This document shows, piece after piece, positions 12,210-30,584 of a stretch of 64,000 nt of DNA (positions are counted from its first letter, which is position 1; each line of letters opens with the position of its first letter). Source of the stretch: Aureimonas sp. AU4 (GTDB lineage: Bacteria; Pseudomonadota; Alphaproteobacteria; Rhizobiales; Rhizobiaceae). Location: assembly GCF_001463765.1 (NCBI RefSeq), contig NZ_BBWK01000012.1:1-64000 (forward strand), given 5' to 3'. The notes beneath the pieces are model-generated. The model was not told the origin of the DNA, searched no databases, and saw nothing but the letters and a program-made list of their open reading frames with translations. The position numbers were made by a program, and so were the translations under genes.

Positions 12210-13184
12210 TCAGGCGACGAGGCGCGGCAGCGACACGGCGGAGCGGCGCGTCGGCGTGGCGGTGAAGGCCTGCGTGTGCTCGAAGGAGCGAACGCCCGCC
12301 TGACTGCCGAGGCCGGTGGCGTTGAGCGCCGAGGTCGCCTGGGCGAAGCGCACCATGGTCTCGGGGTCCATGCCGTGCACGAGGCCGGTGGCGATGCCGG
12401 CGTTGAAGGCGTCGCCGCAGCCGCAGGAGCAGACCATCTGGATGTCGAAGGCCGGCATCAGGAAGCGGTCGCCGTTGGCGTGGCGATAATAGGCGCCGTT
12501 CTCGCCGAGCGTCAGGATGCAGCAGGTGACGCCCCGGTCGAGGAAGAAGCGCGCGACGTCCTCGATATCCTCGAGACCCGACAGGACGCGCGCCTCCTCG
12601 ATCGAGGGGAGGAAGTAGTCGGTGTAGGGCAGGAGGCCGACGACGTTGGCGAGATCCTTCTCGGCCGCCGCGAAGACGTCGACCGTGGTCAGCGCGCCGC
12701 GCCGCTTGGCCTCCGCGAAGAGCCGCGCCGAAGGCTCGCCGTCCATGCGGTCCATGAGGCCGACGCCGCCCAGATGCACGACGGTGGCGTCGAGCATCTG
12801 GTCGAGGCTGTCGTCACTCACCGCGAAGGCGCCGGTCGCCCCCCGCATGTGCAGCGCCGGGCGCGAGCCGTCGGCGCGCGTCAGGATGATCGAGGTCGAG
12901 GTGCCGACCCCTGCGCAGCGCTGCATGAGCGAGATGTCGATGCCGAACTGCGCCATGCGGTTCAGCACCCAGTCGGCCATCAGGTCGTCGCCGACGCCGC
13001 CCACCGCCAGGCACTTCAGGCCGTGCTTGGCGGCGGCCACCACGGCCGCGCCCGCCGCGCCGGACACGGCGATGTCGATCTGCGGGATGAACGCCGTTCC
13101 GCCGCCGGCCGGGATCTCGCCGACGGGGCGGCCGAGGCAGTCGAAGGTGATGAAGCCGATCGAGGTGTAGTCGTAGCGCGCCAT
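12210..13184 (-). CDS. PfkB-family sugar kinase
   Basis: 324 residues of the ribokinase fold. An N-terminal GGTAFIPQIDIAVSGAAGA substrate loop and the C-terminal PfkB signature CGCGDAFNAGIATGLVHG are present, with catalytic Asp in GCGDAF. A GGGAGGAG box precedes the ATG. It transfers phosphate from ATP to a sugar, sugar phosphate or deoxysugar hydroxyl; the exact acceptor is not readable. It lies 58 bases after the GlpD-like gene in the leftward arm of the divergent catabolic locus, so it probably phosphorylates an intermediate of that pathway. Confidence 0.88.
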   Translation of the reverse strand: MARYDYTSIGFITFDCLGRPVGEIPAGGGTAFIPQIDIAVSGAAGAAVVAAAKHGLKCLAVGGVGDDLMADWVLNRMAQFGIDISLMQRCAGVGTSTSIILTRADGSRPALHMRGATGAFAVSDDSLDQMLDATVVHLGGVGLMDRMDGEPSARLFAEAKRRGALTTVDVFAAAEKDLANVVGLLPYTDYFLPSIEEARVLSGLEDIEDVARFFLDRGVTCCILTLGENGAYYRHANGDRFLMPAFDIQMVCSCGCGDAFNAGIATGLVHGMDPETMVRFAQATSALNATGLGSQAGVRSFEHTQAFTATPTRRSAVSLPRLVA

Positions 13185-13242
13185 GGTCCGCGTCTCCTCC
13201 CTTATGCCTGCGGCGGGGCCCCTTTCCAGGTCCCGCGAATGT

Positions 13243-14841
13243 CTAGTGAAGCGTTGCCCGCGCGCTCTCGATGATCGCCTCGACCTCGGCGTGGGCCGCC
13301 TCGCTCGCGCGGCCCGTCAGCGCGATCTCGGTGCGCCGGCGCAGGATGTCGTCGGCGGTTCGCACCAGCTCGTGCCGCGCGATCCAGCGGATTTCGGCGT
13401 CGTGGTAGTCCGGCAGCGCGCGAAGCGTCGCGCCGTCCGAGGCGCCGATCGCCTCGGCGACGGGCCGGGCCCGCGTGCCGTAGCGCAAGAGAAGCCGCTC
13501 GCCGACGGATGCGCGCGCGAGCCGGTCCAGTTCGGCCGCGAGTTTCGCGCGGCCGCGCGCGTCCACAGGGAAGTCGCGGCCCCCGCCGATGGCGAGATCG
13601 GCCGTGGAGGCGCGCCGCGCGCGCCCGAGATGCCCGAGCACGCGGTCGGCGGCCTCTTCCGAGAAGCCGCGATAGGTGGTCCACTTGCCGCCGATCAGCG
13701 ACAGGACCGGCACGTCCGTGCCCGGCAGCTTGTCCTCGCCGAAGGAGTGGTCGCGACTGATCTCGCCGGGATTGTCGACATCCGCGCGCGGCAGCGGGCG
13801 CACGCCGCAGAAGCTGTAGACGACGTCCTCGCGCCCGATCGCCATATTCGGAAAGACCTCGGCCACGACGCCGATCATGTAGCCGATCTCGTCCTCGCTC
13901 ACCTCGGCCTCGTCGGGGTGGGCGACCGGAATGTCGGTGGAGCCGATGAGGACACGGTTCTTGAAGGGGTAGAGGAGGTTCACGCGCCCGTCGGCCGAGC
14001 CGAAATAGACCATGCGACCGTTCAGCGCCGCGAGAAGGCCGGGGTGCTCCACCACGACGTGGCTGCCCTTGGTGCCGCCCATGTAGCGGCTGTTGAGGCC
14101 GAGCGCCGCGTTCACGTCGTCGATCCAAGCGCCGCCGGCATTCACCACGAGGTCGGTGGTGACGCGCTCGCGCCGGCCCGTCAGCCGGTCCTCGATCTCG
14201 ATCACGCCGCCCGCTTGGCCGCGCGCCGTGCAATAGGTTCGGATGCCGCTCCCCGGATTGTCGGCGAGCGCGTCGAGCGCGATCTCGAGGCCGAGCCGCT
14301 CGGCGTGGTCGAGCCGCGCCTCGTAGTAGAGGCCGACCGCCAGGATGCCCGGATCGAGGCCGGGCAGGAGGCGCTGCGCCTCGCGCCGGCCGACGAAGCG
14401 ATGCACGGGCATGGCGCGGAAGCGCCGGCCGAAGATATCGTAGAGCGTCAGGCCGAGCGCGGTGATCAGCCGGCCGCGGTCGTTGAGCCTGGCCTTGAGG
14501 CCGAGGAAGCGCCTGGCGGAGGGCACGATGCCGCCGAACCAGGAGCGCACGGGCAGGGCGGTCTCGAGCGGCGCCACGGCGTGCGGCGCGTTGCGCAGGA
14601 GGAGGTTGCGCTCCTCCGCCGACTGGCGAACCAGGCGGAACTCGCCGGTCTCGAGATATTTCAGCCCTCCGTGCATCAGGCGCGAGGAGGCCGCGCTCGC
14701 GCCCCCGCACAGGTCTCCCCGGTCCACGAGCAGGCAGTCCACGCCCTGCAGGCACAGGTCGCGGAACGTGCCGATGCCGTTGATTCCCCCGCCGACGACG
14801 AGAACGGGAACGTGGCGGATGTCGGAGGGTGAGGCGTCCAT
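13243..14841 (-). CDS. FAD-dependent glycerol-3-phosphate dehydrogenase-like enzyme (GlpD/EryB type)
   Basis: 532 residues. The N-terminal VLVVGGGINGIGTFRDLCLQ dinucleotide fold and GGASAASSRLMHGGLKYLE FAD motif are typical of GlpD. A GGKWTTYRGFSEEAAD segment and a C-terminal helical domain complete it. Family members oxidise the secondary alcohol of glycerol 3-phosphate or other polyol phosphates and pass electrons to quinone at the inner membrane. The Brucella erythritol enzyme EryB is a relative that uses a tetritol phosphate. With a PfkB kinase after it and a polyol PTS nearby, a polyol phosphate other than glycerol 3-phosphate is plausible. Confidence 0.85.
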   Translation of the reverse strand: MDASPSDIRHVPVLVVGGGINGIGTFRDLCLQGVDCLLVDRGDLCGGASAASSRLMHGGLKYLETGEFRLVRQSAEERNLLLRNAPHAVAPLETALPVRSWFGGIVPSARRFLGLKARLNDRGRLITALGLTLYDIFGRRFRAMPVHRFVGRREAQRLLPGLDPGILAVGLYYEARLDHAERLGLEIALDALADNPGSGIRTYCTARGQAGGVIEIEDRLTGRRERVTTDLVVNAGGAWIDDVNAALGLNSRYMGGTKGSHVVVEHPGLLAALNGRMVYFGSADGRVNLLYPFKNRVLIGSTDIPVAHPDEAEVSEDEIGYMIGVVAEVFPNMAIGREDVVYSFCGVRPLPRADVDNPGEISRDHSFGEDKLPGTDVPVLSLIGGKWTTYRGFSEEAADRVLGHLGRARRASTADLAIGGGRDFPVDARGRAKLAAELDRLARASVGERLLLRYGTRARPVAEAIGASDGATLRALPDYHDAEIRWIARHELVRTADDILRRRTEIALTGRASEAAHAEVEAIIESARATLH

Positions 14842-14863
14842 GGCGGTTCTGAAGCGGGGGCGT

Positions 14864-15103
14864 TCAGGACACGATCGCGACCTTGATCGCGTCGCCGCGC
14901 ACGGCCGTGTCCAGCGCCTCGTTGATCGAGGTGAGCGCGAGACGATGCGTCAGGACGGGCCCGGTGTCGAGCGGTCCCGTGGCGATGAGGTCGGCGACGT
15001 CGCGAACCGGAGGCGCGTCGCCCGGGAACTCGCGGCGGAGCGCGGATGGGAAGCGCACGCCCATGGCCCGGCGGCTGGTTGGAATGGCCACGCCACGCGC
15101 CAC
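14864..15103 (-). pseudogene. C-terminal relic of a zinc-type alcohol dehydrogenase
   Basis: Only the last 60-70 residues of a medium-chain alcohol dehydrogenase remain: a VADLIATGPLDTGPVLTHRL segment followed by SINEALDTAVRGDAIKVAIV. The zinc and nucleotide-binding domains are absent; the intact flank ends near 15075, where the intergenic region of the divergent operon begins. It ends 22 bases before the GlpD-like gene, so it was once the first gene of that leftward operon. The short frame from 15103 probably makes no functional protein. Confidence 0.75.
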
Positions 15104-15190
15104 CGTCTCGCTCCTGCGACCCGCATTTCTTGCCAGCGACGAGCGCGGGACATGCGTTTTCCCGACAGGGGAACGGCGTAAAATGACGCT

Positions 15191-15227
15191 GTGAACTGTT
15201 GTCTTTCACCTAATACAAATGTATCTT
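15191..15227 (+). promoter_or_regulatory. Promoter with two inverted repeats before the DRL-like gene
   Basis: A plausible sigma-70 promoter is TTGTCT (15199-15204), 17 bases, TATCTT (15222-15227), about 20 bases before the ATG at 15248. Two palindromes overlap it: GTGAA/TTCAC (15191-15195 with 15205-15209) and ATACA-AA-TGTAT (15213-15224). Their position over the spacer and -10 suits a repressor operator. The regulator is not identified; the SorC-type protein at 29589 is one candidate. Confidence 0.5.
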
Positions 15228-15247
15228 TCTCGCATGGAGGACGTCCG

Positions 15248-16567
15248 ATGAGCATTCTGCAGGTGGGCCTGGCGGCCGAGCTTCAGGCCTATGCCGACCA
15301 GCATGGTCCGGTGACCGTGGGTCTGGCCGGCTCCGGCCAGATGGGCACCGACATGGTGGTGCAGCTGACCCTCATGCCGGGCGTGCGCCTGGGCGCCCTG
15401 TCGGAGCTGAACATCGCGGGCGCGGAAAGCGCGCTGCGCATGGCGGGCTCGGAATTCTCGCGCGCCTCGAGCGCCGGCGACATCGACCGCGCCATCGAGG
15501 GCGGGCGCGTCGCGCTCACCGAGGACTACAAGGCGCTGTGCTCCAGCGGCCGGATCGACGTCATCATCGACGCCACGGGCAACCCGAACGTCGGCACGCT
15601 GATCGCGCTGGAGGCGTTCCGCAACGGCAAGCACGTCGTGATGCTGAACGTCGAGGCCGACATCACGATCGGCCGTTTCCTGCGCGAGGAGGCCGCCAAG
15701 GCCGGCGTCATCTACACGGGCGCGGCGGGCGACGAGCCGGCGGCGACCGTCGAGATCATCGGCTTCGCCCAGTCGCTCGGCTTCGATATCGTGTGCGCGG
15801 GCAAGGGCAAGAACAATCCCCTGAAGTTCGATGCCACGCCGGACGCCTACGAGGAGGAGGCGCGCCAGCGCAACATGAACGCGCGCATGCTGGTGGAGTT
15901 CGTGGACGGCTCGAAGACCATGATCGAGATGGTGGCCGTCGCCAACGCCACGGGCCTCGTGCCCGACGTGCCGGGCATGCACGGGCCGGCCGCGACGCGC
16001 GACGAACTCGCCTCCGTCCTCTGCACGAAGCAGGACGGCGGCGTCCTGTCGGGCCCCGGCAAGGTCGACTACTCCATCGGCAAGGGCGTCGCGCCCGGCG
16101 TCTTCTGCATCGTGAAGCCGAAGCATGATCGCGTGCTCGAGCGCATGAGCGATCTCAAGATGGGTCCCGGCCCGAACTACACGATCTTCCGGCCCTACCA
16201 CCTGACCTCGCTCGAGGTGCCGCTCTCGGCGGTGCGTGCGGTGGTCAAGAAGACGCCCGACCTCGTCCCCGCCGAGCGCCCGGTCGCCGAATGCGTGACG
16301 CTCGCCAAGCGCGACCTGAACCCGGGCGACACGCTCGGCAAGATCGGCGAGTACGACTATCGCGGCTTCGCGATGACTTGGGAAGGCGCGCGAAACGAGG
16401 GCGCCCTGCCGCTGGGTCTGGCCGAGCGGGCCCGCGTCATCAAGCCGATCAAGGCCGGCGAGAAGCTGACCTATGCCAACTGCGAGCCCGACGACAGCCT
16501 CGTGATCACCCAGATCCGCCGCCGTCTCGACCAGGCCGACGGCCGGTTCGCGACGCAGGCCGCGTAG
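15248..16567 (+). CDS. SAF-domain NAD(P)-dependent oxidoreductase, DXR-II/DRL-like
   Basis: 439 residues from an ATG with GGAGG seven bases upstream; an earlier GTG at 15191 lacks a site. Residues 15-180 form a Rossmann domain ([37 protein letters not shown]), a homoserine-dehydrogenase-like catalytic part follows ([36 protein letters not shown]), and a SAF beta-clip domain lies near 355-430 ([20 protein letters not shown]). This architecture matches the family that includes Brucella DRL, which converts DXP to MEP in place of DXR. Residue-level proof of that activity is not possible here. Leading an operon with acetoin-dehydrogenase-like genes suggests a catabolic role. Confidence 0.78.
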
Positions 16568-16598
16568 AGCAGACCCACCCCGCAAGGAGCCGATTCCC

Positions 16599-17651
16599 AT
16601 GTCCGCCATCCCGCGCAGCTCCGAGGTCGCAGACGCCGCCTCCCAAGGCGTGGCCCCGCGAGGCGGCGACAACCGGCCCTTCGCCTTTCGGCACTTCCCG
16701 GCCGAGGTCCTGAGGGACGCGCTGCGCCAGATGCATCTCATCCGCCGCTTCGAGGAAGGGGCGGAGGAGAGCTACATGCGCGGCCTCATCCACGGCACGA
16801 TGCATCTCTCGATCGGCCAGGAAGCCTCGGCGGTGGGGGTCTGCCTGCCGCTCACCGAAACCGACCAGATCACCTCGACCCATCGCGGCCACGGCCATTG
16901 CATCGCCAAGGGCGCGGAGGTGGGGAAGATGTTCGCCGAGTTCTTCGGCAAGGAGACGGGCTATTGCCGGGGGCGCGGCGGCTCCATGCACATCGCCGAC
17001 GTCGCCAAGGGCAATCTCGGCGCCAACGGCATCGTGGGCGGCGGCCTGCCCATCGCGGTGGGTGCCGCGCTTTCCATGAAGATGCAGCGCCGGCCCGACG
17101 TCGTCGTCTCCTTCTTCGGCGACGGCGCCAACAACGAGGGCGCCTTTCACGAGGCGCTGAACATGGCCTCGATCTGGAAGCTGCCGGTCGTGTTCGTGTG
17201 CGAGAACAACAAGTACGGCATGTCGGTCTCGACCGAGCGCTCCACCGCCGTCAAGAACATCGCCGAGCGCGCGGTGGCCTACGCGATGCCGGGCGTGACC
17301 GTCGACGGCAACTCGCTGTCGGACGTGTCGGAAGCCTCCGTCACGGCCATAGAGCGCGCGCGTCGCGGCGAGGGGCCGACGCTGATCGAGTGCAAGACCT
17401 ACCGCCATCGCGGCCATTCCAAGAGCGACCGCAACCGCTACCGTACCAAGGAGGAGATCGATGACTGGATCTCGAAGGATCCGATCGGTCGCTTCGAGGC
17501 GGAGATGCTGGAATACGGCGTGGTGAACGCGGCTGCGATCGACGAGATCCGCGCCGGCGTCGAGCGCGAGATCGCGGAGGGCATCGAGTTCGCCAGGAAC
17601 TCGCCGTCCCCTGACCCGTCCGAAGCGACGCGTTTCGTCTACACGGCCTGA
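16599..17651 (+). CDS. ThDP-dependent dehydrogenase E1 alpha subunit (AcoA-like)
   Basis: 350 residues. The thiamine-diphosphate motif is [20 protein letters not shown] through VFVCENN, and [14 protein letters not shown] and [11 protein letters not shown] are conserved E1-alpha blocks; a [14 protein letters not shown] phosphorylation-loop-like segment follows. An AAGGAG box precedes the ATG. With the beta subunit it decarboxylates a 2-oxo acid or, in the acetoin-dehydrogenase subgroup, cleaves an alpha-ketol and loads the acyl unit onto lipoamide. The cleavage role is preferred because the third subunit is AcoC-like rather than a standard acyltransferase. Confidence 0.88.
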
Positions 17652-17676
17652 ACAGCCGACCCCAAGGAATCCCCGG

Positions 17677-18690
17677 ATGAGCGAACTTGCGAACGCGGCA
17701 GCCGGCCGCGAGCTTTCCTATGCCCAGGCGATCCAGGAAGCGATCGCCATCGCCATGGAGGAGGACAGCCGCGTCTTCATCATGGGCGAGGACATCGGCG
17801 TCTACGGCGGCGCCTTCCAGGTGACGGGCGACCTCGTGCACCGCTTCGGCGCCGAACGCGTGATCGACACGCCGATCGCCGAGCTCGGCGGGGCAGGGGT
17901 TGCGGTGGGCGCCGCGCTCACCGGCATGAAGCCGATCTACGAGTTCCAGTTCTCGGACTTCGCGACGCTCGCCATGGAGCAGATCGTGAACCAGGCGGCG
18001 AAGCTGCGCTTCATGCTCGGCGGCAACGTCTCGGTGCCGCTCGTGATGCGCTTTCCCGCGGGCTCGGGCACGGGCGCGGCCGCGCAGCACTCCCAGAGCC
18101 TCGAAGCCTGGCTCGGCCACGTGCCGGGCCTCAAGGTCCTGCAGCCCTCGACGCCCCACGATGCCAAGGGCATGCTGCTCGCCGCGATCGACGACCCCGA
18201 TCCGGTGATGATCTTCGAGCACAAGATCCTCTACAAGATGAAGGGCCTCGTGCCGGAAGGGCGCTACACGGTCCCGATCGGCAAGGCCGCCGTGGTGCGC
18301 GAGGGGCGGGACCTGACGATCGTGGCCAGCGCCATCATGGTCCACAAGGCTCTGACCGCCGCGGAGGAGCTGGCCCGCGACGGGATCGACGTCGAGGTCG
18401 TCGACCTCAGAACGATCCGTCCGATGGACCGCGAGACCATCATCGCGAGCGTCATGAAGACCGGGCGCCTCGTCTGCGTCTACGAGGGCGTGAAGACGCT
18501 GGGCGTCGGCGCCGAGATCGCGGCCATGATCGCGGAGAGCGAGGCCTTCGATTATCTCGACGCGCCGATCGTGCGGCTGGGGGGCGCGGAATCGCCCATC
18601 CCCTACAATCCCGAGCTGGAAAAGGCGGTGGTGCCGCAGGTTCCCGACATCCTTGCGGCCGTGCGCTCGCTGCACAAGCGGGAGCGCTGA
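17677..18690 (+). CDS. ThDP-dependent dehydrogenase E1 beta subunit (AcoB-like)
   Basis: 337 residues, 25 bases after the alpha gene. Conserved blocks include [57 protein letters not shown] and [20 protein letters not shown], followed by the C-terminal transketolase domain ([13 protein letters not shown]). It completes the alpha2beta2 E1 whose active site sits at the interface. The length and blocks fit acetoin and branched-chain 2-oxoacid dehydrogenases alike, so the substrate class comes from the operon context. Confidence 0.9.
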
Positions 18691-18693
18691 GCC

Positions 18694-20103
18694 ATGCCGA
18701 CCGAGGTGATCCTGCCCAAGGTCGACATGGACATGGCGACCGGCCAGATCTCGCGCTGGTTCTACCGGGAGGGCGACCGGATCAAGAAGGGCGAGCCGCT
18801 CTTCGAGATCGAGACCGACAAGGCCGCCATGGAGGTCGACGCGCCGGCCAGCGGCACGCTGCGCGACGTGACCGGGGCGGAAGGCGTCGATATCGCCATC
18901 GGTGCGGCTGTCGCCTGGATCTATGCCGAGGGCGAGCGCTACGAGGCCGCGCCCACCACCGGGGCCGGCAAGCCGGAGGCGGTCGGGCCGGATCCGGATG
19001 TCGAGGTGGACTCGGGGCCCGTCACGCAACGAGACGTGGCAGTCGTCGCGGGCCGGGCTGAGGACGCGACGCAGCCCATCACCGCGTCGGACGGCTCGCG
19101 TCGCGGCGTTCGCGCCACCCCACTCGCCCGGCGTCTCGCGCGCGAGCATGGCATCGACCTCTCGACGCTGACGGGTCGTGGCCCGTGCGGGCGCATCGGG
19201 CGCGAGGAGGTCGAGGAGGCGGTCGCCGCGCGCCGAAGCGAGACCGCCCCGGCGCCTGCCTCGGCCAACGGCCCGGTTTCCTCACCCGTGTCCCCCGCTC
19301 CGGTCGTGGAGAGGAGCGCCGAGCAGGCGCCCCGCGCGGCACCCGCGAACCCGCCGCTCAACGCCGTCTGGCTGCGGCAGGGCGCGGGAACGCCGGTGAT
19401 CCTGATCCACGGCTTCGGCTCCGAGCTCGCGAGCTGGCGTCCGATGCTGTCCGAGATCGCGGACGACATGCCCATCCTCGGCATCGACCTCCCCGGGCAT
19501 GGCGGCTCGGTGGACCGCGAGGCATCAAGCTTCGAAGACCTCGTCGCGGCGGTCGAGGACACGATCCGTGCCTTCGGCATCGCGTCGGCCCATCTCGTCG
19601 GCCACTCGCTCGGCGGCGCGGTGGCGGTGGCGGTGGCGGGCGGCATCGCGCTGGAGACGCGCTCGCTGCTTCTGGTCGCGCCCGGCGGCTTCGGGCCGGA
19701 CATCGACACCGGCTTCACGGACGGCTTCGCCCGCGCAAGCGAGGAGCCGGCGGTGCGCGCCTGGCTGCACCACCTCGTCGCCGACCCCGCCGCGCTGTCG
19801 GACGGCTTCGTGCGCGCGACAGCGCGAGGCCGAGCCGACGGACGCCAGACCCTCGCGCAGACGAGGCTCGCAGGCCGGCTCTTTTCGAACGGCACGCAGC
19901 ATTTCGACGTGCGCCGGCTCGTGGGCGAGCTGTCGATGCCGGTGAAGATCGTAGTGGGCGCCGAGGACCGCGTGCTGCCGGCGCGCCACTTCACCGGGCT
20001 TCCCGGCCGCATCGCCTTGCACATCTTCGCCCGCACCGGCCATATGCCGCAGATCGAACAGCGGGCCGAGGTCGCCCGGCTCCTGCGCGAGCTCGCCCGC
20101 TAA
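18694..20103 (+). CDS. AcoC-like protein: lipoyl, E3-binding and alpha/beta hydrolase domains
   Basis: 469 residues starting three bases after the beta subunit. Residues 1-80 are a lipoyl domain with the attachment lysine K43 in ETDKAAMEV. An E3-binding domain covers about 135-175 ([33 protein letters not shown]). After a Pro/Ala linker, residues 220-469 are an alpha/beta hydrolase ([13 protein letters not shown], nucleophile GHSLGG, C-terminal His in RTGHMP) in place of the usual acyltransferase catalytic domain. This is the AcoC arrangement of acetoin dehydrogenases, with an added E3-binding module. No E3 gene is in the operon, so a housekeeping lipoamide dehydrogenase is presumably recruited. 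Confidence 0.88.
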
Positions 20104-20153
20104 ACCGACGCCGCCCGGCCCGATCGAGCGGCGCGACAACCGAAAGACGCGGC

Positions 20154-20813
20154 ATGGCGCAGTTCGACCTCATTATCTTCGACTGCGACGGGGTGCTCGT
20201 CGACTCGGAGATCCTGGCGCGCCGCGCGGTGCAGTCCGTCTTCCGCCAGGCGGGAATCGAGATCACCGCCGAGATGGTGGACGCGGTGGTCGGCATGAAG
20301 TTCGCCGACCTCCTGGCCGGGCTCGAGGAGCGCACGGGCCGCAAGCTGTCGCAGGACTACCATCCGCGCTTCTGGAGCGAGACCAAGGCGCTGTTCTCGG
20401 CCGAGCTCCTGCCGGTGCCGGGCGTGGCGGACTTTCTGGAGCGCTCGACCCTGCCGCGCTGCGTCGCCTCCTCCTCGGACCACGAGCGCATCCGCCACAG
20501 CCTCAGCGTCACGAAGCTCGACCGGTTCTTCGGAGCGGATGCGATCTTCTCCTCGCACGACGTCAGGCGTGGCAAGCCCGAGCCCGACCTCGTGCTGCAC
20601 GCAAGCGCCCGCATGGGTGCCCAGCCGGAGCGCTGCCTCGTGATCGAGGACTCGCGCTTCGGCGTCCAGGGCGCGAAAAGCGCCGGCATGACCGCCTACG
20701 GCTTCCTGGGCGGGGCGCACCTCCTGGCGAACTCCGGCGAGGCGCTTCGCGCGGCCGGCGCAGACTTCGTCGCCCGCACCTGGGACGAGATCGCCGCCGA
20801 GATGATGGGCTGA
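20154..20813 (+). CDS. HAD-superfamily phosphatase/phosphomutase
   Basis: 219 residues with the HAD motifs in order: IIFDCDGVLVDSE (nucleophile and acid Asp), SSSD, RRGKPEPD lysine and LVIEDSRFGVQGAKSAG. The small helical cap of residues 15-85 is of the beta-phosphoglucomutase/sugar-phosphatase type. It hydrolyses or transfers phosphate on a small sugar or polyol phosphate. It is last in the rightward operon, 50 bases after the AcoC-like gene, with a weak ribosome site, and may relieve accumulation of phosphorylated intermediates. Confidence 0.85.
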   Translation: MAQFDLIIFDCDGVLVDSEILARRAVQSVFRQAGIEITAEMVDAVVGMKFADLLAGLEERTGRKLSQDYHPRFWSETKALFSAELLPVPGVADFLERSTLPRCVASSSDHERIRHSLSVTKLDRFFGADAIFSSHDVRRGKPEPDLVLHASARMGAQPERCLVIEDSRFGVQGAKSAGMTAYGFLGGAHLLANSGEALRAAGADFVARTWDEIAAEMMG

Positions 20814-20906
20814 CGGTTTCCGGGCGCCTATCGGAAGGTTCGGCCCGGCCGCAGCGGCGACAGGCCGTCATGGTTGCCGCATCCCGAAGGAGAGCTGCGG
20901 CGGCTT

Positions 20907-23780: not shown

Positions 23781-24408
23781 GCATCGACTGTTCATCGTGG
23801 ACGACCATCCGATCGTCCTTTCGGGCTTGAATTCCCTCTTGTCGGAGCAGGCCGATCTGGAAGTCGTCGGCCAGGCCGAAGCGGCGGCGGACGCGATGGA
23901 ACAGATCGAGAGCACGCAGCCGGATCTCGTGATCGTCGACGGCTCGCTTCCCGGCATGTCGGGCGCCGCGCTCGTGAGCCACCTGACGAAGCGCTTCCCC
24001 GGCATCCGCACCCTTGCGCTGACGCTGCACGAGGAAGGGGCCTATGTGCGGGCGTTCTTTCGGGCCGGTGCCAAGGGGTTCGTTCTCAAGGCGTCGGCGG
24101 CGGATGACCTTCTCAAGGCCATTCGGGCGGTGCTGGCGGGCGGCGTCTACGTGGATCCCGCGATCGCGGGCAAGGTGATCCCGCTCAAGCCCGTCGCACG
24201 CGCGCGAGGCGACGGGCTCAGCGATCGCGAGGAGAGCGTGTTGCGGCTCGTCGCGTCCGGCCACTGCAACAAGGAGATATCGACGTATCTCGGCCTCAGC
24301 ACGAGGACCGTCGAGACCTACCGCGCCCGCGCCTTTGAAAAGCTGGGATTGCGCAGCCGGGTCGCGGTCCTGCGCCATGCGATGGCGGAGGGCTGGTTCC
24401 TGGAGTGA
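23764..24408 (+). CDS. NarL/LuxR-type response regulator
   Basis: 214 residues. The receiver domain (1-120) has the acidic pair in IVDDHP, the phosphoacceptor Asp in LVIVDGSLPG and the conserved Lys in GFVLKAS. The C-terminal LuxR helix-turn-helix reads LSDREESVLRLVASGHCNKE through LSTRTVETYRARAFEKLGL. It is the cognate partner of the kinase it overlaps. The divergent Asn-Gly genes are its most obvious local targets, which is inferred from position. Confidence 0.92.
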   Translation: MTSERKHRLFIVDDHPIVLSGLNSLLSEQADLEVVGQAEAAADAMEQIESTQPDLVIVDGSLPGMSGAALVSHLTKRFPGIRTLALTLHEEGAYVRAFFRAGAKGFVLKASAADDLLKAIRAVLAGGVYVDPAIAGKVIPLKPVARARGDGLSDREESVLRLVASGHCNKEISTYLGLSTRTVETYRARAFEKLGLRSRVAVLRHAMAEGWFLE

Positions 24409-24521
24409 CGGCGACGACCCGAGCGAGGCATCGGCTTGTCGGCGGCGGCTTCGAACCCCTGATACGCGCAAGCGAGCCGTCACCGTTCCACCCGTGCAAC
24501 CGCCCATCCGCCCGGGTGGTC

Positions 24522-26495
24522 TCAGATCTCCGTCACGCATTTCTTGGCGCGGCCGATCGAGGCCGGGCTCATGGAGAGTTCGGTGACGCCGTTCTCGACG
24601 AAGAAGGGGATGAGGTCGGGGCGCGCGGCCGCCTCGCCGCAGACGCCGATCCAGATGCCCGCCTCTCGCGCGGCGCGCGCCGCCATGCGGATGGCCTCGA
24701 GCACGGCCGGGTGCTCGGTGCGGTTGAGCTTGGCGACGCGCGGGTTCAGCCGGTCGGCCGCCATGACGTATTGCGTGAGGTCGTTCGTGCCGACCGAGAA
24801 GAAGTCGACCTCGCGCGCGATCGCGCCCGCCAGGAACACGGCGGCCGGCGTCTCGATCATGACGCCGAGCTCGAAGGCACCGTGGGCCAGTCCCTCGGCG
24901 TCGAGCTCGGCGCGGCACTCGTCGAGGAGCGCGCGCACCGCATCCACCTCGCCGACATCGGCGATCATGGGCAGGAGGATCTTCACGTTGCCCGCCGGCG
25001 TGGCCCGCAGGAGCGCGCGCAGCTGCGGCTTGAACACGTCGGGCCGCTCCAGGCACATGCGAACGCCGCGCCAGCCCAGAAACGGATTGTCCTCGTGCTC
25101 GAAGTCGATGCCGGCCACCGGCTTGTCGCCGCCGATGTCGAGCGTGCGGATCACGACCGGGTGGGGCGCGAAGGCCTCCGCCAGCCGGCGGTAGGTCTCG
25201 GCCTGCTCGTCCTCGCCCGGCAGCGCGCGCCGCTCCATGAACAGGAACTCGGTGCGGAACAGGCCGACGCCCATCGCGCCGGCCTCGAGCGCGCCGTCGA
25301 TCTCGGCGAGCGAGCCGAGGTTGGCCGCGATCTCTATGCGCCGCCCGTCGCGCGTGCGGGGCTCCACGGTGCGGTAGGCGATGAGGCTTTCGCGCTCGGT
25401 GCGCTCGCGCGCGATGGCCTCGCGCAGCCGCGCCTCGTCCGCAGCCATGGGATCGACGAGGACCTCGCCGCTCGCCCCGTCGAGGCCGACGACGCGCGCG
25501 GCCTTCAGCGCCTCCTGCGCGAAGGGCGCGCCCAGCACGGCGGGAATGCCGTGGGCGCGGGCCATGATGGCGACGTGGCTGGTGGCGGCGCCCTTGCGGC
25601 AGACGATGCCGGCGATGTCCTTGAGCGTCGCCTTGGCGAGGTCGAGCGCGGCGATCTCGTCGGCGACGATCACCGAACCCGGCGGCATGTCGGCGAGCGA
25701 GGCGTCGCGCTCGCCCAGAAGGGCGAGCGCGATGGAGCGCGTCACCGAGCGGATGTCCTCGGCGCGCGCCCGAAGATAGGGATCGCTCATCGCCTCGAAG
25801 CTGCCGGCGATCTCGGCGCCGGTCCGCGTCACGGCGGCGGGGGCATTCGACCCCTCGCGGATCGAGCGCTCGACGCCGGCGATGAACTCGGCGTCCTCGG
25901 CGACGTCCACCAGCGCGTCGATGATCGCGGCGTCGTCGCGCTTGAGGCCGGGCCGCGCCTTGGCCTTGCGAAAGCTTTCGGTCGTGGCGGCAAGGGCCGC
26001 GCGATAGCGTGCGACCTCGGCCTCCGCGTCGCCCGGTTCGACGCGGTCGGCGGGGATGCGGAGCGCTGCGGGAAAGAAGGCGAAGGCGGGGCCGATCGCC
26101 GTACCCTCGCTGGCGGCGACGCCGCGCGAGGGACCGGGGGCCGGGACCGGCAGGGGCGCGAGGCTGGCCGACGCCGCAACGTCCCCGGCGGCCGAGGTCG
26201 CGCTCGCGGCGGGCGGGGCCGCCAGCTCCACGTCGCCCGCGCCCGGGGTCTGGAGGAAGGTCGCCAGCGCCGACACCGCCTCGGCCGCGTCCTCGCCCTC
26301 GGCCCGCAGCACCGCCTCGTCGTTCTCCTTGACGCCGAGCAGCATCAGCTTGACCGCGCTCTTGGCGCTCGCGCCGCGTCCGTTGCAGCGGATCTCGACC
26401 TCACAGGTGAAGCTCTTGGCGAGCTTCACGAACTGGGTGGCCGGGCGGGCATGGAGCCCTTCGTGCACGCGCACGACGACGGAACGCTCGATCAT
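24522..26495 (-). CDS. HPr-Enzyme I fusion of a carbohydrate phosphotransferase system
   Basis: 657 residues. The HPr domain (1-88) has phosphorylatable His15 in HEGLHARPATQ. An Ala/Pro linker leads to full Enzyme I (about 120-657) with active His307 in KGAATSHVAIMARAHGIP, and the PEP-binding barrel (GLFRTEFLFMERRALP, IRTLDIGGDKPV, CGEAAARPD). There is no GAF domain, so it is not the nitrogen-PTS PtsP. It carries phosphate from PEP to the IIA protein encoded 34 bases upstream. A dedicated HPr-EI fusion makes the transporter independent of any other PTS in the cell. Confidence 0.92.
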   Translation of the reverse strand: MIERSVVVRVHEGLHARPATQFVKLAKSFTCEVEIRCNGRGASAKSAVKLMLLGVKENDEAVLRAEGEDAAEAVSALATFLQTPGAGDVELAAPPAASATSAAGDVAASASLAPLPVPAPGPSRGVAASEGTAIGPAFAFFPAALRIPADRVEPGDAEAEVARYRAALAATTESFRKAKARPGLKRDDAAIIDALVDVAEDAEFIAGVERSIREGSNAPAAVTRTGAEIAGSFEAMSDPYLRARAEDIRSVTRSIALALLGERDASLADMPPGSVIVADEIAALDLAKATLKDIAGIVCRKGAATSHVAIMARAHGIPAVLGAPFAQEALKAARVVGLDGASGEVLVDPMAADEARLREAIARERTERESLIAYRTVEPRTRDGRRIEIAANLGSLAEIDGALEAGAMGVGLFRTEFLFMERRALPGEDEQAETYRRLAEAFAPHPVVIRTLDIGGDKPVAGIDFEHEDNPFLGWRGVRMCLERPDVFKPQLRALLRATPAGNVKILLPMIADVGEVDAVRALLDECRAELDAEGLAHGAFELGVMIETPAAVFLAGAIAREVDFFSVGTNDLTQYVMAADRLNPRVAKLNRTEHPAVLEAIRMAARAAREAGIWIGVCGEAAARPDLIPFFVENGVTELSMSPASIGRAKKCVTEI

Positions 26496-26529
26496 GGAAA
26501 GGCTCGATTCTGGCAGGAAAGGGCCGGCG

Positions 26530-26910
26530 TCAGCCGCCGATGACGATCTCGGCGCCGCTCCTGAGGGCGGCCGCGAGCTCTCCGCCGTCGACCGGACTCG
26601 CCGTCAGCTCGCCGGGCCGCGCGGGCTCGGCCTCGCCGTTGAAGTTGATCACGACATGGCCGATGTCGCGCACCTTGGCCCAGGCAAGCGGACCGATGCC
26701 GGTGAGGCTGGCCAGCACCGAGCCGACGCGGATCGGGGCACCGACGGCGGGCGGCTCGTCGCTCGGGCCTTCCACGACGCTGTGCAGCACCGAGACCTCG
26801 GCGAGCTCGGGCGGCGCGCCGTCGGCGAACAGGATCAGGACGCCGCCCTCCAAAAGGTCGGGAACGTCGGGGCCGACGGCGGTGACGGTGGTGCGCAGAT
26901 GGGCGGTCAT
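26530..26910 (-). CDS. PTS glucitol/sorbitol-family IIA component (SrlB/GutB type)
   Basis: 126 residues of the small beta-barrel IIA-Gut family. The phosphorylated histidine is H43 in AEVSVLHSV, the same position as in the enterobacterial protein, and VINFNGEAEPARPGEL is a conserved tail block. It receives phosphate from the HPr domain and passes it to the cysteine of the IIB domain encoded by the gene before it in the operon. Family membership is firm; the sugar alcohol carried is not. Confidence 0.9.
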   Translation of the reverse strand: MTAHLRTTVTAVGPDVPDLLEGGVLILFADGAPPELAEVSVLHSVVEGPSDEPPAVGAPIRVGSVLASLTGIGPLAWAKVRDIGHVVINFNGEAEPARPGELTASPVDGGELAAALRSGAEIVIGG

Positions 26911-27049
26911 GGGCGTGCTTCTCCGGTCGCGCGGGGGCAGCGCGGCGTCAGGGGATGGGAAGGAGTGGACCGGAGCCTATAGCCGCGGTCCGGGGGCCGG
27001 TCGATGCGGGTCCGGGCAAAGCGATGCCTCGCCCGGACCCGCGTCCGGA

Positions 27050-28105
27050 TCAGAGCAGGAAGCTCGCGCCCCAGGCGATCAGCACCGAGACCGGTCCCAT
27101 GACCTGGCGGCTGATGAGGACCGCCGGCACGCCGATCTCGATGGTCTTGGGCTTGGCCTCGCCGAGCGCGAGGCCCACGGGCACGAAGTCGCAGCCGACC
27201 TGCGTGTTGTAGGCGAACAGGGCGGGCAGGGCCATCGCCGGGGCGATCGTGCCGTTGGCGATCTGCGGGCCGATGATGGCGACGCCGATCACCTGCGCGA
27301 TCACCGCGCCGGGGCCGAGAATCGGCGACAGGAACGGCAGGCCGCAGATGGCGGAGAGGACGATCAGGCCGACGATGTTGTTGGCGAGCGGACCCATCGG
27401 GGCCGCCAGGAGATCGCCGACGCCCGTGTAGAGGATGATGCCGATCAGCATGGTCACGAAGGCCATGAAGGGCAGGACGTTGCGGATCACCATGTCGATG
27501 GTGCGCCGGCCGGCGTTGAAGAAGATGCCGACCGCGCGGCCCATGACGCGGCCGACGCTCGTGATCGCGCCGATGAGGCCGCCCTTGTTGGTGGCGGGAA
27601 GCGAGCCGCCCAGCGCGGCGCTGGCTTCGGCGGCCGACGAGAACGAGCGCGGCGCGGCGGTGGGCTGGCCCATGGCGGCGGGCGAGGCGGCGCTCTGGCC
27701 GCTGGCGGCCCCGGCGGGTGCCGCCGAGCCGTCGGCGGGAGCCATGTCCTCCACGGTCACGCCCGAGACGTAGATGTCCTCGGTGATGAACTGGGCGAGC
27801 GGGCCCGACTGCCCGACGGGCATGATGTTGACGGTGGGGATGCGCTTTCTCGCATACACGCCGCAGCGGGCCGTGCCGCCGCAGTCGATCACGACGGCGG
27901 CCATCTCGGATTCCAGCGGCGGGTTGCGGAACCCGTCCACCACGGTGGCACCGGTCAGCTCGGCCAGGCGCTGGGCGACGGCGGGGATGCCGCCGCCCGT
28001 CACCGCCACGATCTTGTCGCGCTCGGGCGTCGGCTGGATCACCAGCGGTCCGCCCCAGCCGCCCTTGCCGGGCGAGACGCGGATGGCCTTGAAGGTCTTG
28101 TTCAT
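27050..28105 (-). CDS. PTS glucitol/sorbitol-family IIB-containing component (SrlE type)
   Basis: 351 residues. The IIB domain (1-170) has the active-site region VIDCGGTARCGVYARKRIPT with C75 and C81, preceded by GGWGGPLVIQPT. An Ala/Pro linker leads to four or five membrane segments (about 230-351) forming the second half of the permease. It phosphorylates the polyol during transport together with the IIC protein encoded just before it. Adjacent genes in the same order (IIC, IIB, IIA) match srlAEB. Confidence 0.92.
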   Translation of the reverse strand: MNKTFKAIRVSPGKGGWGGPLVIQPTPERDKIVAVTGGGIPAVAQRLAELTGATVVDGFRNPPLESEMAAVVIDCGGTARCGVYARKRIPTVNIMPVGQSGPLAQFITEDIYVSGVTVEDMAPADGSAAPAGAASGQSAASPAAMGQPTAAPRSFSSAAEASAALGGSLPATNKGGLIGAITSVGRVMGRAVGIFFNAGRRTIDMVIRNVLPFMAFVTMLIGIILYTGVGDLLAAPMGPLANNIVGLIVLSAICGLPFLSPILGPGAVIAQVIGVAIIGPQIANGTIAPAMALPALFAYNTQVGCDFVPVGLALGEAKPKTIEIGVPAVLISRQVMGPVSVLIAWGASFLL

Positions 28106-28130
28106 GTGCGTGTCCTCCCGAGACCGATCG

Positions 28131-28982
28131 TCAGAGCGTCACCCCCTCGCGCGCGGCGAGGAAGCGGGTGATGCGCTCGGTGACGATGCCCTTGAGAAGG
28201 ATCACGACGACGCCGACGATGAAGTAGTAGATGGCGAGGTTGATGTGGTAGCCGGCCGGCACGACGCCCCGGTTCTCGAGCTCCAGGAGCGCGACGAGGA
28301 CGCCGCCCCAGACGAAGTACTCGCCGGCGTTGGCGTGCGGGAAGAGGCCGAGGATCGGGTGGCAGAAGGAGACCGCCGAGTCGTAGAAGGCGGGCTTGTG
28401 CTTCTCCTCCAGGAAGGTCCCGAACGTGTAGGCCATCGGGTTGGTGAGAAAGAACATGGCCAGCACGGGCAGCACGGTGTAGCGCGTCAGCGCGATGCGG
28501 CCGGCCTTCTGGGCAAGGCCGTGGACGCGCTCCTCGCCGATCATGCCGGTGAGCGCGTAGAAGGCGGTCATCAGCACCACCAGCGTCGGGATGATGCCGG
28601 TGACGAAGCCGAGGAATACCTCGCCGCCCTTCTGAAAGACGCCGATGAAGTGGCGGCCGATCGTGGCGAGCCAGCCGAGCTGCTCCTCCTGGTTGCCGCT
28701 CTTGGAGAGCTGCTGCACGCGCCGGGCGTATTCGTCGGCCGAGATCGCGCCCCCGCTGGTCGCGGGCGCCGTCGCCTGCGCCGTGCCGGCGGCGCCGGGA
28801 TCGGCGGCCTGGGCAATGAGCGTCGCGCCCTGGTGACCGGCATCCGCGATCGCCCCCGCGTGGTGGCCCGCCACGTCGGCGAGCGGCACGGCGAGCGCCG
28901 GGTCGCTCAAGGCGTGGGCGTAGGCGGCACCATGGGCGGCGATATCGGCCGCTCCCTGTGCCATCAGCATCGTCAGCATCAT
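28131..28982 (-). CDS. PTS glucitol/sorbitol-family IIC component (SrlA type) with N-terminal extension
   Basis: 283 residues. From about residue 105 the sequence is a standard IIC-Gut membrane domain (HFIGVFQKGGEVFLGFVTGI, LTNPMAYTFGTFLEEKHKPA, FPHANAGEYFVWGG). Residues 1-100 are an Ala/His-rich segment (ADVAGHHAGAIADAGHQGAT and similar) that ordinary SrlA lacks, since that protein begins near the first helix. A start at or just after the first Met is the only reasonable one upstream of the domain. The extension may be a low-complexity linker or mark an unusual topology. It translocates the polyol across the inner membrane. Confidence 0.9.
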   Translation of the reverse strand: MMLTMLMAQGAADIAAHGAAYAHALSDPALAVPLADVAGHHAGAIADAGHQGATLIAQAADPGAAGTAQATAPATSGGAISADEYARRVQQLSKSGNQEEQLGWLATIGRHFIGVFQKGGEVFLGFVTGIIPTLVVLMTAFYALTGMIGEERVHGLAQKAGRIALTRYTVLPVLAMFFLTNPMAYTFGTFLEEKHKPAFYDSAVSFCHPILGLFPHANAGEYFVWGGVLVALLELENRGVVPAGYHINLAIYYFIVGVVVILLKGIVTERITRFLAAREGVTL

Positions 28983-29039
28983 GGGCCCCTCCCGGCCTGT
29001 TGAGTGAGATCGTCTTCTTCTAAGGGGCAGGGCGCACGG

Positions 29040-29492
29040 TCAGGCCGGCGCTTCCGCCCAATCCTCGTCGGCGCGGCCCTGCGCGCTCTTCTCGGCGCGG
29101 GCGGCCTGCGCGGCGCGAACGGTCGCGATCTGGTCGAGCGCGGACAGAAGCGCGGCCGACACGGCGTCCTTCGGCGTGCGTGCGGCCTCGTCGCGCAGCG
29201 CCTCGGCCGTCATGCCTTCCAGATGTGCCAGGCGCTCGGCTTGCGCGAAGACCGTGCGGCCGCGGATCGACACCGCGCGGCGGATCCGCTCGTCGGGACC
29301 CATCACCACCATGGCGAGCGCCGCGCCGCGCAGGGCGCTGCCGCCCTTGCCCGCGCCCATCCAGCCGTCCGACCACCCGTTCGACAATTCGCGGAACGCC
29401 GCGCGGTAGCGGCGCACCTGTACGAACGTGCCCGCGCATTGCAGCGTCCAGGCCAGGACCAGAAGCGCCAGGATGCCTTGCCAACCCCACAT
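29040..29492 (-). CDS. GutM-family glucitol operon activator-like membrane protein
   Basis: 150 residues from the ATG at 29492, chosen because GGAGGT lies eight bases upstream; a frame open to 29552 adds 20 residues without a site. A membrane anchor (WGWQGILALLVLAWTLQCAG) is followed by the GutM block QVRRYRAAFRELSNGWSDGW, MGAGKGG and VVMGPDERIRRA. Enterobacterial GutM activates the glucitol operon by an unclear mechanism. Here it leads the PTS operon. The Glu/Ala-rich C-terminal tail after about residue 100 is long for the family. Confidence 0.85.
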   Translation of the reverse strand: MWGWQGILALLVLAWTLQCAGTFVQVRRYRAAFRELSNGWSDGWMGAGKGGSALRGAALAMVVMGPDERIRRAVSIRGRTVFAQAERLAHLEGMTAEALRDEAARTPKDAVSAALLSALDQIATVRAAQAARAEKSAQGRADEDWAEAPA

Positions 29493-29538
29493 GGACCGCA
29501 CCTCCCGTCGGCGCCCATCCCGCGCCGACCCCATCAAG

Positions 29539-29570
29539 GAACATTTGACCATTACGATGTCAATATGTTC
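29539..29570. promoter_or_regulatory. Operator-like palindrome before the PTS operon
   Basis: GAACATTTGAC (29539-29549) and GTCAATATGTTC (29559-29570) are inverted arms separated by nine bases, with one extra base in the right arm. The site lies between the SorC-type regulator stop and the gutM start in an unusually A+T-rich stretch. The span of about 32 bases suits a tetrameric SorC/CggR-type regulator. Binding is inferred. Confidence 0.65.
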
Positions 29571-29588
29571 AAAACCTCCGCGACGACC

Positions 29589-30584
29589 TTATTCCGGCTC
29601 CCGCAGCAGGCGGACGGCGCTGCGCTCGTCGGTGATCAGCACCGTCGGCCGCACGAAGGCGATCGCGGCTCTCAGGGCGTCGATCTTCTCGGGACCGCCC
29701 GAGGCCACGACGCGGGCGGGCGCCCGGCGGATGGCGGCCATGTCGGCGGACATGATGCGCGAGTTGATGGGATGATCGATCAGACGGCCGTCGCGGTCAA
29801 TGAAGTGGAACAGGAGGTCGCCCACCGCGCCCGCCCGCTCCAGCGAGCGCCGGTCGCCTTCCGCGATGAAGCCGGTGCGGTAGGTGGTGGCGTCGGCCGC
29901 GATGCCGCCGACCGAGAGCACCACGAGGTCCAGCGCCTCGGCCATGTCGAGCACGGGCTTGAGGCCGCAGCGCTCCACCAGCGCCCGCTTGGTCTCGGCG
30001 CTGTCGACGATCGCGGGCGCGGCGAGCAGGAAGGCGTCGCCGTTGAAGATCTGGGCGAAGCGCCAGGCGAACTCGGCCGGATTGAAGCGATGGGCCTCGG
30101 CGATGCCGCCGAGCAGCGAGACGACGCGCAGGTCCTCCAGGGCGCGCGCCTCGATGAAGGGCAGCGAGTCAAGAAGGGTGCGGCCCCAGCCGAGGCCCAC
30201 CGTCATGCCCGAGCGCACGGCTTCCGACAGGTAGGCGCCGATCGCCGCGCTGATCACCGGGGCGGGGTCCTCGCCCGCGCCCGGTGCCGGCACCACAATC
30301 GCGCGGGCCAGCGCGTGTCGCCGTTCCAGATCGCGCTCGATGCCCACGAGCTCGGCGAGCGGCCCCGTCACGGAGATGCGCACCTCGGCGCGCGCCCGTG
30401 CCTCGGCGAGCAGGCGCACCACGCTGACGCGCCCGATGCCGAGCGCGGTCGCGATGTCGTTCTGGGTCATCTCCTCGACATAGTACATCCAGGCGGCGCG
30501 CACGCGCATGCGGTCGGAGCGCGAGCCGGCTTCGCCGGGGACGGCCTCGAGGGCGGCGGGCCGCGCGGTTCGCGTCACCGGCAC
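29589..30584 (-). CDS. SorC-family sugar-binding transcriptional regulator
   Basis: 331 residues from a GTG at 30584; the Met at about 30509 is an alternative. The N-terminal helix-turn-helix reads AAWMYYVEEMTQNDIATALG, GIGRVSVVRLLAEAR. Residues 80-331 are the SorC sugar-phosphate-sensing domain (VGLGWGRTLLDSLP, VVSLLGGIAEAHRFNPAEFA, DLVVLSVGGI). Such regulators sense a phosphorylated sugar made by the pathway they control. It is read in the same direction as gutM and the PTS genes, and the large palindrome between them is its probable operator. Confidence 0.88.
   Translation of the reverse strand: MPVTRTARPAALEAVPGEAGSRSDRMRVRAAWMYYVEEMTQNDIATALGIGRVSVVRLLAEARARAEVRISVTGPLAELVGIERDLERRHALARAIVVPAPGAGEDPAPVISAAIGAYLSEAVRSGMTVGLGWGRTLLDSLPFIEARALEDLRVVSLLGGIAEAHRFNPAEFAWRFAQIFNGDAFLLAAPAIVDSAETKRALVERCGLKPVLDMAEALDLVVLSVGGIAADATTYRTGFIAEGDRRSLERAGAVGDLLFHFIDRDGRLIDHPINSRIMSADMAAIRRAPARVVASGGPEKIDALRAAIAFVRPTVLITDERSAVRLLREPE

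Follow-up and report, generated by a model that had tools for sequence, protein, structure and literature searches.

A gene cluster at positions 12210-32155 of a 64,000-nucleotide stretch from Aureimonas sp. AU4 (the window, from contig C12 of a 4.49-Mb genome; window GC content 70%) probably encodes a catabolic pathway for a 2-C-methyl-branched tetritol, most likely 2-C-methyl-D-erythritol (ME). A glucitol-type phosphotransferase system (PTS) would import ME as its 4-phosphate (MEP), a task that an ABC transporter and a PfkB kinase would fulfill in sister clusters. An enzyme of the DRL (DXR-II) family of 1-deoxy-D-xylulose 5-phosphate (DXP) reductoisomerases (DXR) would then run backwards and oxidize MEP to DXP. 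A thiamine pyrophosphate-dependent E1 would split DXP into glyceraldehyde 3-phosphate and an acetyl group carried on a lipoyl-E2, which would hand the acetyl group to CoA; the E3 component is presumably shared with the rest of the cell in the window genome, although it is encoded in the clusters of some relatives. This oxidative cleavage would pull the conversion of MEP to DXP in its unfavorable direction, and the products, acetyl-CoA and glyceraldehyde 3-phosphate, would feed central metabolism. A SorC-type protein would regulate the pathway. We infer the substrate, the direction of the DRL reaction, the specificity of E1 and the regulation, and set them beside the observed gene content, its conserved linkage, the DXR-II membership of DRL and the redundancy of DRL with DXR-I in many hosts. 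A first-pass annotation made from the sequence had proposed the same route; its interpretation is supported overall, with DXP cleavage by E1-E2 and the identity of the substrate as the conjectural parts.

Core genes of the cluster

Pfam and NCBIfam scans of the window place the core genes in two operons. The rightward operon (+ strand, intergenic gaps of 3 to 50 bases) begins with DRL (15248-16567; PF21135, 222 bits; PF03447, 27 bits), the proposed MEP:NADP+ oxidoreductase forming DXP. Its reading frame opens at 15191, and the likely start is the ATG at 15248, preceded by GGAGG. It is followed by E1 alpha (16599-17651; PF00676, 298 bits) and E1 beta (17677-18690; PF02779/PF02780), which would form the DXP-cleaving dehydrogenase, by an AcoC-type E2 (18694-20103; NF011457, 368 bits against a cut-off of 307) with lipoyl, E3-binding and alpha/beta-hydrolase domains that may transfer the acetyl group to CoA, and by a HAD phosphatase (20154-20813; PF13419, 88 bits) as fifth gene.

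The PTS operon lies about 4 kb away on the opposite (-) strand. Its first gene encodes a SorC/DeoR-type sugar-phosphate-sensing regulator (29589-30584; PF04198, 176 bits), a type also found close to many relatives' clusters, and the remainder encode GutM (29040-29552; PF06923, 57 bits), IIC (SrlA; 28131-28982; PF03608; NF049923, 186 against a cut-off of 150), IIB (SrlE; 27050-28105; PF03612/PF07663; NF049924, 436 against 400), IIA (26530-26910; PF03829, 77 bits) and an HPr-EI fusion (24522-26495; PF00381, PF05524, PF00391 and PF02896) that would serve as a private general PTS phosphotransferase. Every gene named by the first-pass annotation was found in its place, and its description of a complete glucitol-family PTS with its own HPr-EI and SorC regulator is borne out, IIB and IIC both exceeding their NCBIfam cut-offs.

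Conserved linkage of the PTS, DRL and E1 genes

The linkage of PTS, DRL and E1 is not due to chance, because PTS, DRL, E1 alpha and E1 beta genes stand together in 26 of 46 fully flanked loci drawn from several phyla. These loci came from a scan of genome contigs with a DRL alignment, the best 80 of 565 matches being kept and yielding 79 named loci. A locus was counted as fully flanked when at least 9 kb lay on either side (46 of the 79), short-flanked loci were scored as lacking the genes, and a PTS was called from at least two subunits. Among all 79 loci, 33 have the PTS and both E1 genes, 18 the PTS only, 6 E1 only and 22 neither; for the fully flanked loci the figures are 26, 12, 1 and 7, respectively. 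Loci with both span Bacilli, thermophilic Clostridia-like genomes, Chloroflexota, Rubrobacteraceae, another actinobacterial metagenome-assembled genome (MAG) and one Spirochaetaceae MAG. The first-pass annotation had staked its proposal on the PTS and DRL/Aco genes occurring together, and they do so in several phyla. In a DRL tree of 128 rows the PTS-plus-E1 label is scattered, with at least 14 changes needed on the starred branches, as if the PTS-E1 context of DRL were old, or had often spread or been lost. Three Listeria loci (L079, L155 and L157) have a SorC-DRL-GutM-IIC-IIB-IIA operon; a gene for tagatose-bisphosphate aldolase lies a few kb further along, and E1-E2 is missing from the stretch.

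The linkage also holds in several alphaproteobacterial families. Within the same order, 40 regions around DRL matches (38 from other genomes and 2 from the window genome itself) were searched with the window proteins. PTS, DRL, E1 alpha, E1 beta and E2 occur together in five (L038, L040, L041, L059 and L061), DRL, E1 alpha, E1 beta and E2 without a PTS in the region in four (L055, L056, L058 and L072), and the PTS and both E1 genes are absent from the remaining 31. The association is also seen from the side of the transporter. Glucitol IIB is present in 14 of 249 genomes of the order, 12 of which have a DRL (E≤1e-60), compared to 72 of the 249 overall (Fisher p = 9e-6). DRL, E1 and PTS lie within 20 kb of each other in eight of the 14 (the window genome, G045, G069, G085, G105, G136, G188 and G229). 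They are also present in G162, whose DRL is partial and lies at the end of a contig. G104 shows matches to E2 and to DRL, the latter short of the 1e-60 cut; G248 shows E2 at the beginning of a contig; and G155 has E1 alpha, E1 beta and E2, with DRL on a different contig.

Most E1 loci were reached via DRL, the E1-first approaches being a plasmid search and an E1 alpha identity comparison in 10 genomes. The plasmid search started from E1 alpha (identity of at least 60%) and returned 33 records, many from sister strains; by comparison of coordinates, a DRL match directly adjoins E1 alpha in 32. Annotated examples are from Terrarubrum, Sinorhizobium meliloti Rm41, Nitratireductor, Pseudoroseomonas and Priestia.

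The phosphorylation step is modular, being served by either the PTS or an ABC transporter with a PfkB kinase. Five loci (L055, L056, L058, L077 and L211) have the latter pair and no PTS in the stretch examined, and this replacement suits a neutral polyol that is phosphorylated on entry. In the window, a PfkB-family sugar/polyol kinase gene (12210-13184, - strand; PF00294, 125 bits; no NCBIfam equivalog cut-off reached, ribokinase scoring 103 against 300) and a GlpD-like gene are divergent from the DRL operon. Two kinases encoded near the S. meliloti cluster share 70% and 57% identity with the PfkB protein, the former lying past a second, RbsA-type ABC transporter. The window PfkB may belong to the type of kinase that acts where an ABC transporter replaces the PTS. 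In G023, a genome of the same family as the window genome, kinase and transporter genes are 83-92% identical to those of the S. meliloti cluster region.

The reaction catalyzed by DRL

The only PDB matches of the window DRL are the Brucella DRL structures 3upl and 3upy (E 6e-142), and both its catalytic and its NAD(P)-binding domains score above the Pfam cut-offs. When six DRLs were compared to the Brucella structures, the bit scores were 725 for the cluster protein of L059, 645 for the non-cluster paralogue L060, 477 for the window DRL, 476 for the window genome's own copy on contig C13, 319 for the Chloroflexus aurantiacus cluster protein and 287 for that of Ligilactobacillus salivarius. Judged by these scores, the MEP-forming enzyme of Brucella appears nearest, among the six, to a DRL from a PTS-E1 cluster. 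Residues reported to be important for DXR-II function are Lys191, Lys193, Thr229 and Arg320 in Brucella numbering, and T229 and R320 are reported to diverge in the related DLO1 and DLO2 proteins (PMC3847144). The equivalents in the window DRL are K205, K207, T243 and R334 of the 458-aa open reading frame. By its domains and signature residues, what had been annotated as a DRL-like enzyme belongs to the DXR-II family. All four residues are kept in 75 of 75 PTS- or E1-linked rows, of which 65 were pattern-selected or from plasmids and 10 were otherwise found (the window and the same-order genome search); because the peptide patterns of the cross-phylum scan include GKGKNN and DG[ST]KTM, conservation in those loci is partly by construction. 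Eight rows of the 128-row tree, at 33-37% identity, are set apart (99/98% SH-aLRT, quick search), and we read them as DLO-type, in a tree made without published DLO sequences.

It is quite unlikely that DRL merely oxidizes a linear deoxy-polyol phosphate, such as a 1-deoxy-pentitol 5-phosphate, in the way of an ordinary polyol-phosphate dehydrogenase and supplies E1-E2 with DXP or a similar ketose with no branched rearrangement. The polyol-type PTS and the GlpD-like and Zn-dehydrogenase genes that recur near the clusters fit that idea, as several oxidations may feed one ketose; however, the DXR-II signature is retained (T229 in all 75 linked rows, with the selection of 65 of them just noted), and some cluster DRLs have to work as a DXR, as the following genomes indicate.

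DXR-I was sought in 48 genomes with DRL near E1, namely 9 alphaproteobacteria and the hosts of all 39 E1-linked cross-phylum loci. It is present in 28 (2 of the 9 and 26 of the 39), so the cluster DRL is redundant for isoprenoid synthesis there, and a merely biosynthetic DRL was rejected on this ground. In 25 of the 48, IspG was sought as well: nine have both IspG and DXR-I, nine have IspG without DXR-I and seven have neither, although five of these seven are MAGs, making the absences weak, and mevalonate genes were outside the search. Two genomes, G085 and G188 (99% and 98% complete, respectively), have IspG but no DXR-I, and the only DRL_cat protein found in them is that of the cluster. Because IspG is present, DXR-I is absent and there is no other DRL, the cluster DRL of these two genomes must, barring assembly gaps, interconvert DXP and MEP.

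C. aurantiacus points to the same reaction. Its locus L202 encodes SorC, E1 alpha, E1 beta, E2, IIC, IIB, IIA and DRL in one stretch, and no DXR-I was found in the genome (G278). The C. aurantiacus DXR-II reportedly complements E. coli cells deficient in DXR, and the organism is classed with those having mevalonate but not MEP genes (PMC3847144). Among the three DRL-like proteins of this genome the cluster copy alone has the DXR-II motifs, and it scores 294 bits to the L059 protein, compared to 240 and 208 for the others. The cluster copy is presumably the protein tested in that study. The reaction of the cluster DRL is most likely the interconversion of DXP and MEP; the first-pass annotation had suggested MEP and DXP as its reactants, and the sole-DRL genomes and the reported complementation (PMC3847144) favor that suggestion. 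The forward direction, making MEP, is most likely unneeded in most E1-linked hosts.

The window genome itself has IspF, IspG and three DRL_cat genes, and no DXR-I was found in it, so that some DRL must be biosynthetic. It is nevertheless highly improbable that the window DRL is this isoprenoid enzyme, lying by coincidence next to an E1-E2 for acetoin and a PTS for sorbitol. Linkage is kept across phyla and is not confined to close relatives, 28 of the 48 linked genomes keep DXR-I, and a second DXR-II-like copy, on contig C13, groups with the non-cluster copy of G045 (95% SH-aLRT). Although a transketolase gene directly follows it (L036, 9883-13555), this C13 copy is likely the biosynthetic DXR of the window genome and would free the window DRL for catabolism. 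No sorbitol-6-phosphate dehydrogenase, AcoR or AcoX is among the genes annotated in 12210-32155 (no dedicated AcoR or AcoX model was run). Given this and the conservation of DRL, plain sorbitol and acetoin catabolism was dropped as an explanation.

Salvage of exogenous ME into isoprenoids, with the E1-E2 serving another purpose, is likewise very improbable. In hosts with a MEP pathway, imported MEP would feed straight into it, but the DRL and the lipoyl-dependent E1-E2 would then be superfluous, and the cluster is present where IspG was not found (Virgibacillus G250, Lentibacillus G251 and the five MAGs).

Proposed cleavage of DXP by the E1-E2 complex

E1-E2 complexes of the acetoin type oxidatively cleave alpha-ketols with an acetyl end, and DXP is such an alpha-ketol. 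Cluster E1 alpha proteins are 70-74% identical to that of the window, whereas other E1 alpha proteins in the same 10 genomes reach at most 47%, and the cluster E1 may form a subfamily of its own beside acetoin dehydrogenase. Purified pyruvate dehydrogenase is reported to form 1-deoxy-D-xylulose from pyruvate and glyceraldehyde, and aceE mutants to make enough DXP in vivo to replace DXS (PMC3424233). This precedent suggests that the enzyme class is able to handle the DXP bond.

Galactitol-type PTS genes (EIIC-GAT) are found near DRL or E1 clusters in 11 of the loci examined, from several phyla, among them L219 (13424-15622), L083, L100, L105, L112, L126, L134, L136, L141 and L156. L219 has both the glucitol and the galactitol type, and in L217, a plasmid locus, the E1-E2 genes lie near a galactitol-type PTS in a stretch without DRL. 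Together these suggest that a further substrate, for instance deoxyxylulose itself, is converted to DXP with no involvement of DRL.

Observations that weigh against the proposed pathway

Several observations are at odds with the catabolic pathway for ME proposed here, or are not accommodated by it. Seven of the 46 fully flanked DRL loci have neither PTS nor E1. Another 12, from Listeria, the Bacillus altitudinis/safensis group, Enterococcus and other sources, have PTS and DRL but no E1, which leaves unexplained what becomes of DXP there. Two of the 14 IIB genomes, G209 and G210, have no DRL or E1 near the PTS, although the G209 region retains the HAD gene and one for an uncharacterized protein, family Y. 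The exception among the 33 plasmid records is L217 (Rhizobium sp. SSA_523 plasmid pHM3), with no DRL in its 17-kb stretch: at 687-12321 it has a cluster-subfamily E1-E2-SorC with HPr-EI and the galactitol-type PTS, and IS110-type transposase matches in between. In the E1 alpha tree a branch with a support of 66 separates 59 cluster rows from 19 others; the outgroup is small, and the rows include no acetoin enzyme that has been assayed. A search of the DRL and PTS promoters with one TGAA-gap-TTCA pattern and a 20-base comparison revealed no SorC operator common to both.

The Peptoniphilus family is a further difficulty. DRL is found in 122 of its 130 genomes, and the Peptoniphilus genome G269 has IspG and lacks DXR-I, so DRL looks like a core, biosynthetic gene in this family. 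Finegoldia magna, listed without MEP or mevalonate genes (PMC3847144), had been considered as an argument for a catabolic DRL; it was dropped, as this family-level evidence suggests biosynthesis.

The equilibrium of the DXR reaction favors MEP, and we know of no reverse-direction MEP/DXP assay of a cluster enzyme or of growth on ME. Moreover, the scheme gives the GlpD-like protein, the HAD phosphatase and the family Y protein no role. The first-pass annotation had left GlpD, PfkB and HAD unexplained; PfkB now has a possible use, as the kinase where an ABC transporter replaces the PTS, while GlpD and HAD recur in relatives and are still unexplained. The GlpD-like FAD polyol-phosphate dehydrogenase (13243-14841, - strand; PF01266/PF16901) scores below the GlpD equivalog cut-off (281 against 360), is 57% identical to the copy near the same kind of cluster in S. 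meliloti L077, and has matches in 7 of 85 loci (L076-L160), namely L077, L084, L085, L087, L089, L092 and L093. HAD homologues of 46-54% identity occur in nine alphaproteobacterial regions that also contain the PTS, and the protein might, tentatively, be an overflow phosphatase.

In L. salivarius, the PTS-DRL operon continues, without E1, into genes for fructose-6-phosphate aldolase (fsa) and transketolase (tkt). Fsa is known to act on DXP and could cleave it to hydroxyacetone and glyceraldehyde 3-phosphate; alternatively, the DRLs of PTS-DRL loci without E1 may serve another branched polyol. A pathway of the same kind for such a polyol, for example apiitol (2-C-hydroxymethyl), is also conceivable for the window: DRL would give a pentulose 5-phosphate, which E1-E2 would convert to glycolyl-CoA and glyceraldehyde 3-phosphate or which transketolase or transaldolase would consume. 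The L. salivarius operon and the transketolase gene after the second, C13 DRL of the window genome suit a pentulose phosphate. However, the E2 is of the acetoin (acetyl) type above a curated cut-off, the sole-DRL genomes and the complementation reported for C. aurantiacus tie cluster DRLs to DXP and MEP, and fsa acts on DXP too, making this alternative to ME unlikely.

Neighboring features

Besides the genes it listed, the first-pass annotation had passed over GutM, the family Y protein, a two-component pair and a decayed Zn-dehydrogenase. The last is a relic of a Zn-dependent dehydrogenase in two fragments between the GlpD-like and DRL genes (14842-15247, - strand), detected by tblastn with the Zn-dehydrogenase of S. 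meliloti L077 (48% identity over 42 aa at the C-terminus, E 2e-10; 53% over 19 aa). Zn-dehydrogenase genes adjoin GlpD in S. meliloti L077, Virgibacillus L084 and Lentibacillus L085. The two-component pair (22296-24408, + strand) lies between the DRL and PTS halves; no conserved neighbor of this kind was found in the relatives' regions, with weak partial response-regulator matches in L041 and L065 only. Family Y is represented by a protein of 220 aa (31493-32155, + strand) that no Pfam model matches; its homologues occur in 14 alphaproteobacterial regions, close to HAD, GutM, E2 or DRL. In L218 and L219, genes annotated as hypothetical occupy the place of family Y, the likeness being one of position alone. 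From 32163 on, the rhamnose genes are a system separate from the DRL/PTS cluster: a probable rhamnose catabolic cluster (32163-39052) has a FGGY kinase, a DeoR regulator, an aldolase-dehydrogenase fusion and an isomerase.

Implications

Taken together, the cluster probably encodes a PTS polyol pathway with an unusual core, apparently widely conserved, complete and so far undescribed, and it makes an open question about DXR-II directly testable. We found no account of methylerythritol catabolism or of a DRL-PTS-E1 cluster in the titles and abstracts of the open full-text literature, a scope that leaves subscription papers and preprints aside. The strings PTS and catabol are absent from the main text of the 2013 study of the DXR-II family, which weighs gene dosage, fosmidomycin and gene loss (PMC3847144); a 2026 review treats DXR-II as biosynthetic in the parts consulted (PMC13001223). 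The 2013 study asked how an enzyme redundant with DXR-I evolved and was kept in a patchy pattern, including in organisms that make isoprenoids through mevalonate (PMC3847144), and a catabolic DXR-II would answer that question.

Tentatively, the evidence may be joined in a broader reading, in which DXP is a catabolic hub in several phyla, drained by a dedicated DXP dehydrogenase (acetyl-transferring) E1-E2. ME would feed the hub via the glucitol-type PTS, or an ABC transporter and PfkB, with DXR-II running backwards. In some hosts another deoxy sugar or polyol would enter via a galactitol-type PTS and Zn- or FAD-dependent dehydrogenases, compare L217 and L219. DXR-II would have been catabolic first, arising or spreading as such and being recruited to isoprenoid synthesis in hosts that had lost DXR-I. 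Such an origin would account for the patchy occurrence of DXR-II and its seeming redundancy.

Methylerythritol occurs in plants, and 2-methyltetrols occur in isoprene aerosol; for this reason the pathway, if real, could matter for plant-associated bacteria and for carbon turnover. If the proposal for ME holds, methylerythritol would be a growth substrate with its own pathway in several phyla, an undescribed DXP-cleaving dehydrogenase would exist, and a textbook biosynthetic step would be used in reverse. It would then take the gene context to tell whether a DXR-II gene serves isoprenoid synthesis or is a drug target.

Comparison with known systems

The DXR-II/DRL of Brucella abortus (3upl, 3upy) belongs to the same family as the window DRL over the full length and has the same named active-site residues. 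The Brucella enzyme forms MEP for isoprenoid synthesis, whereas the window DRL is encoded with a PTS and E1-E2 and, by its context, would work in the opposite direction. With the acetoin dehydrogenase system AcoABC, the window shares E1 alpha, E1 beta and an AcoC-type E2 above its cut-off, and the same kind of alpha-ketol cleavage would be involved. It differs in that its E1 may fall in a group of its own, in having a SorC regulator and in having DRL and PTS neighbors; in some relatives, moreover, the E2 is annotated as another type. The sorbitol system srlAEBD-gutM has homologues of its IIA, IIB, IIC and GutM in the window, with IIB and IIC above the NCBIfam cut-offs. However, the window operon has its own HPr-EI, its six genes (SorC, GutM, IIC, IIB, IIA and HPr-EI) do not include a sorbitol-6-phosphate dehydrogenase, and DRL lies nearby instead. 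Finally, erythritol catabolism by EryABC in Brucella and rhizobia employs a GlpD-like polyol-phosphate dehydrogenase and a kinase in a tetritol pathway. The window shares a GlpD-like dehydrogenase and a kinase with that system, but its core enzymes, DRL and E1-E2, are different.

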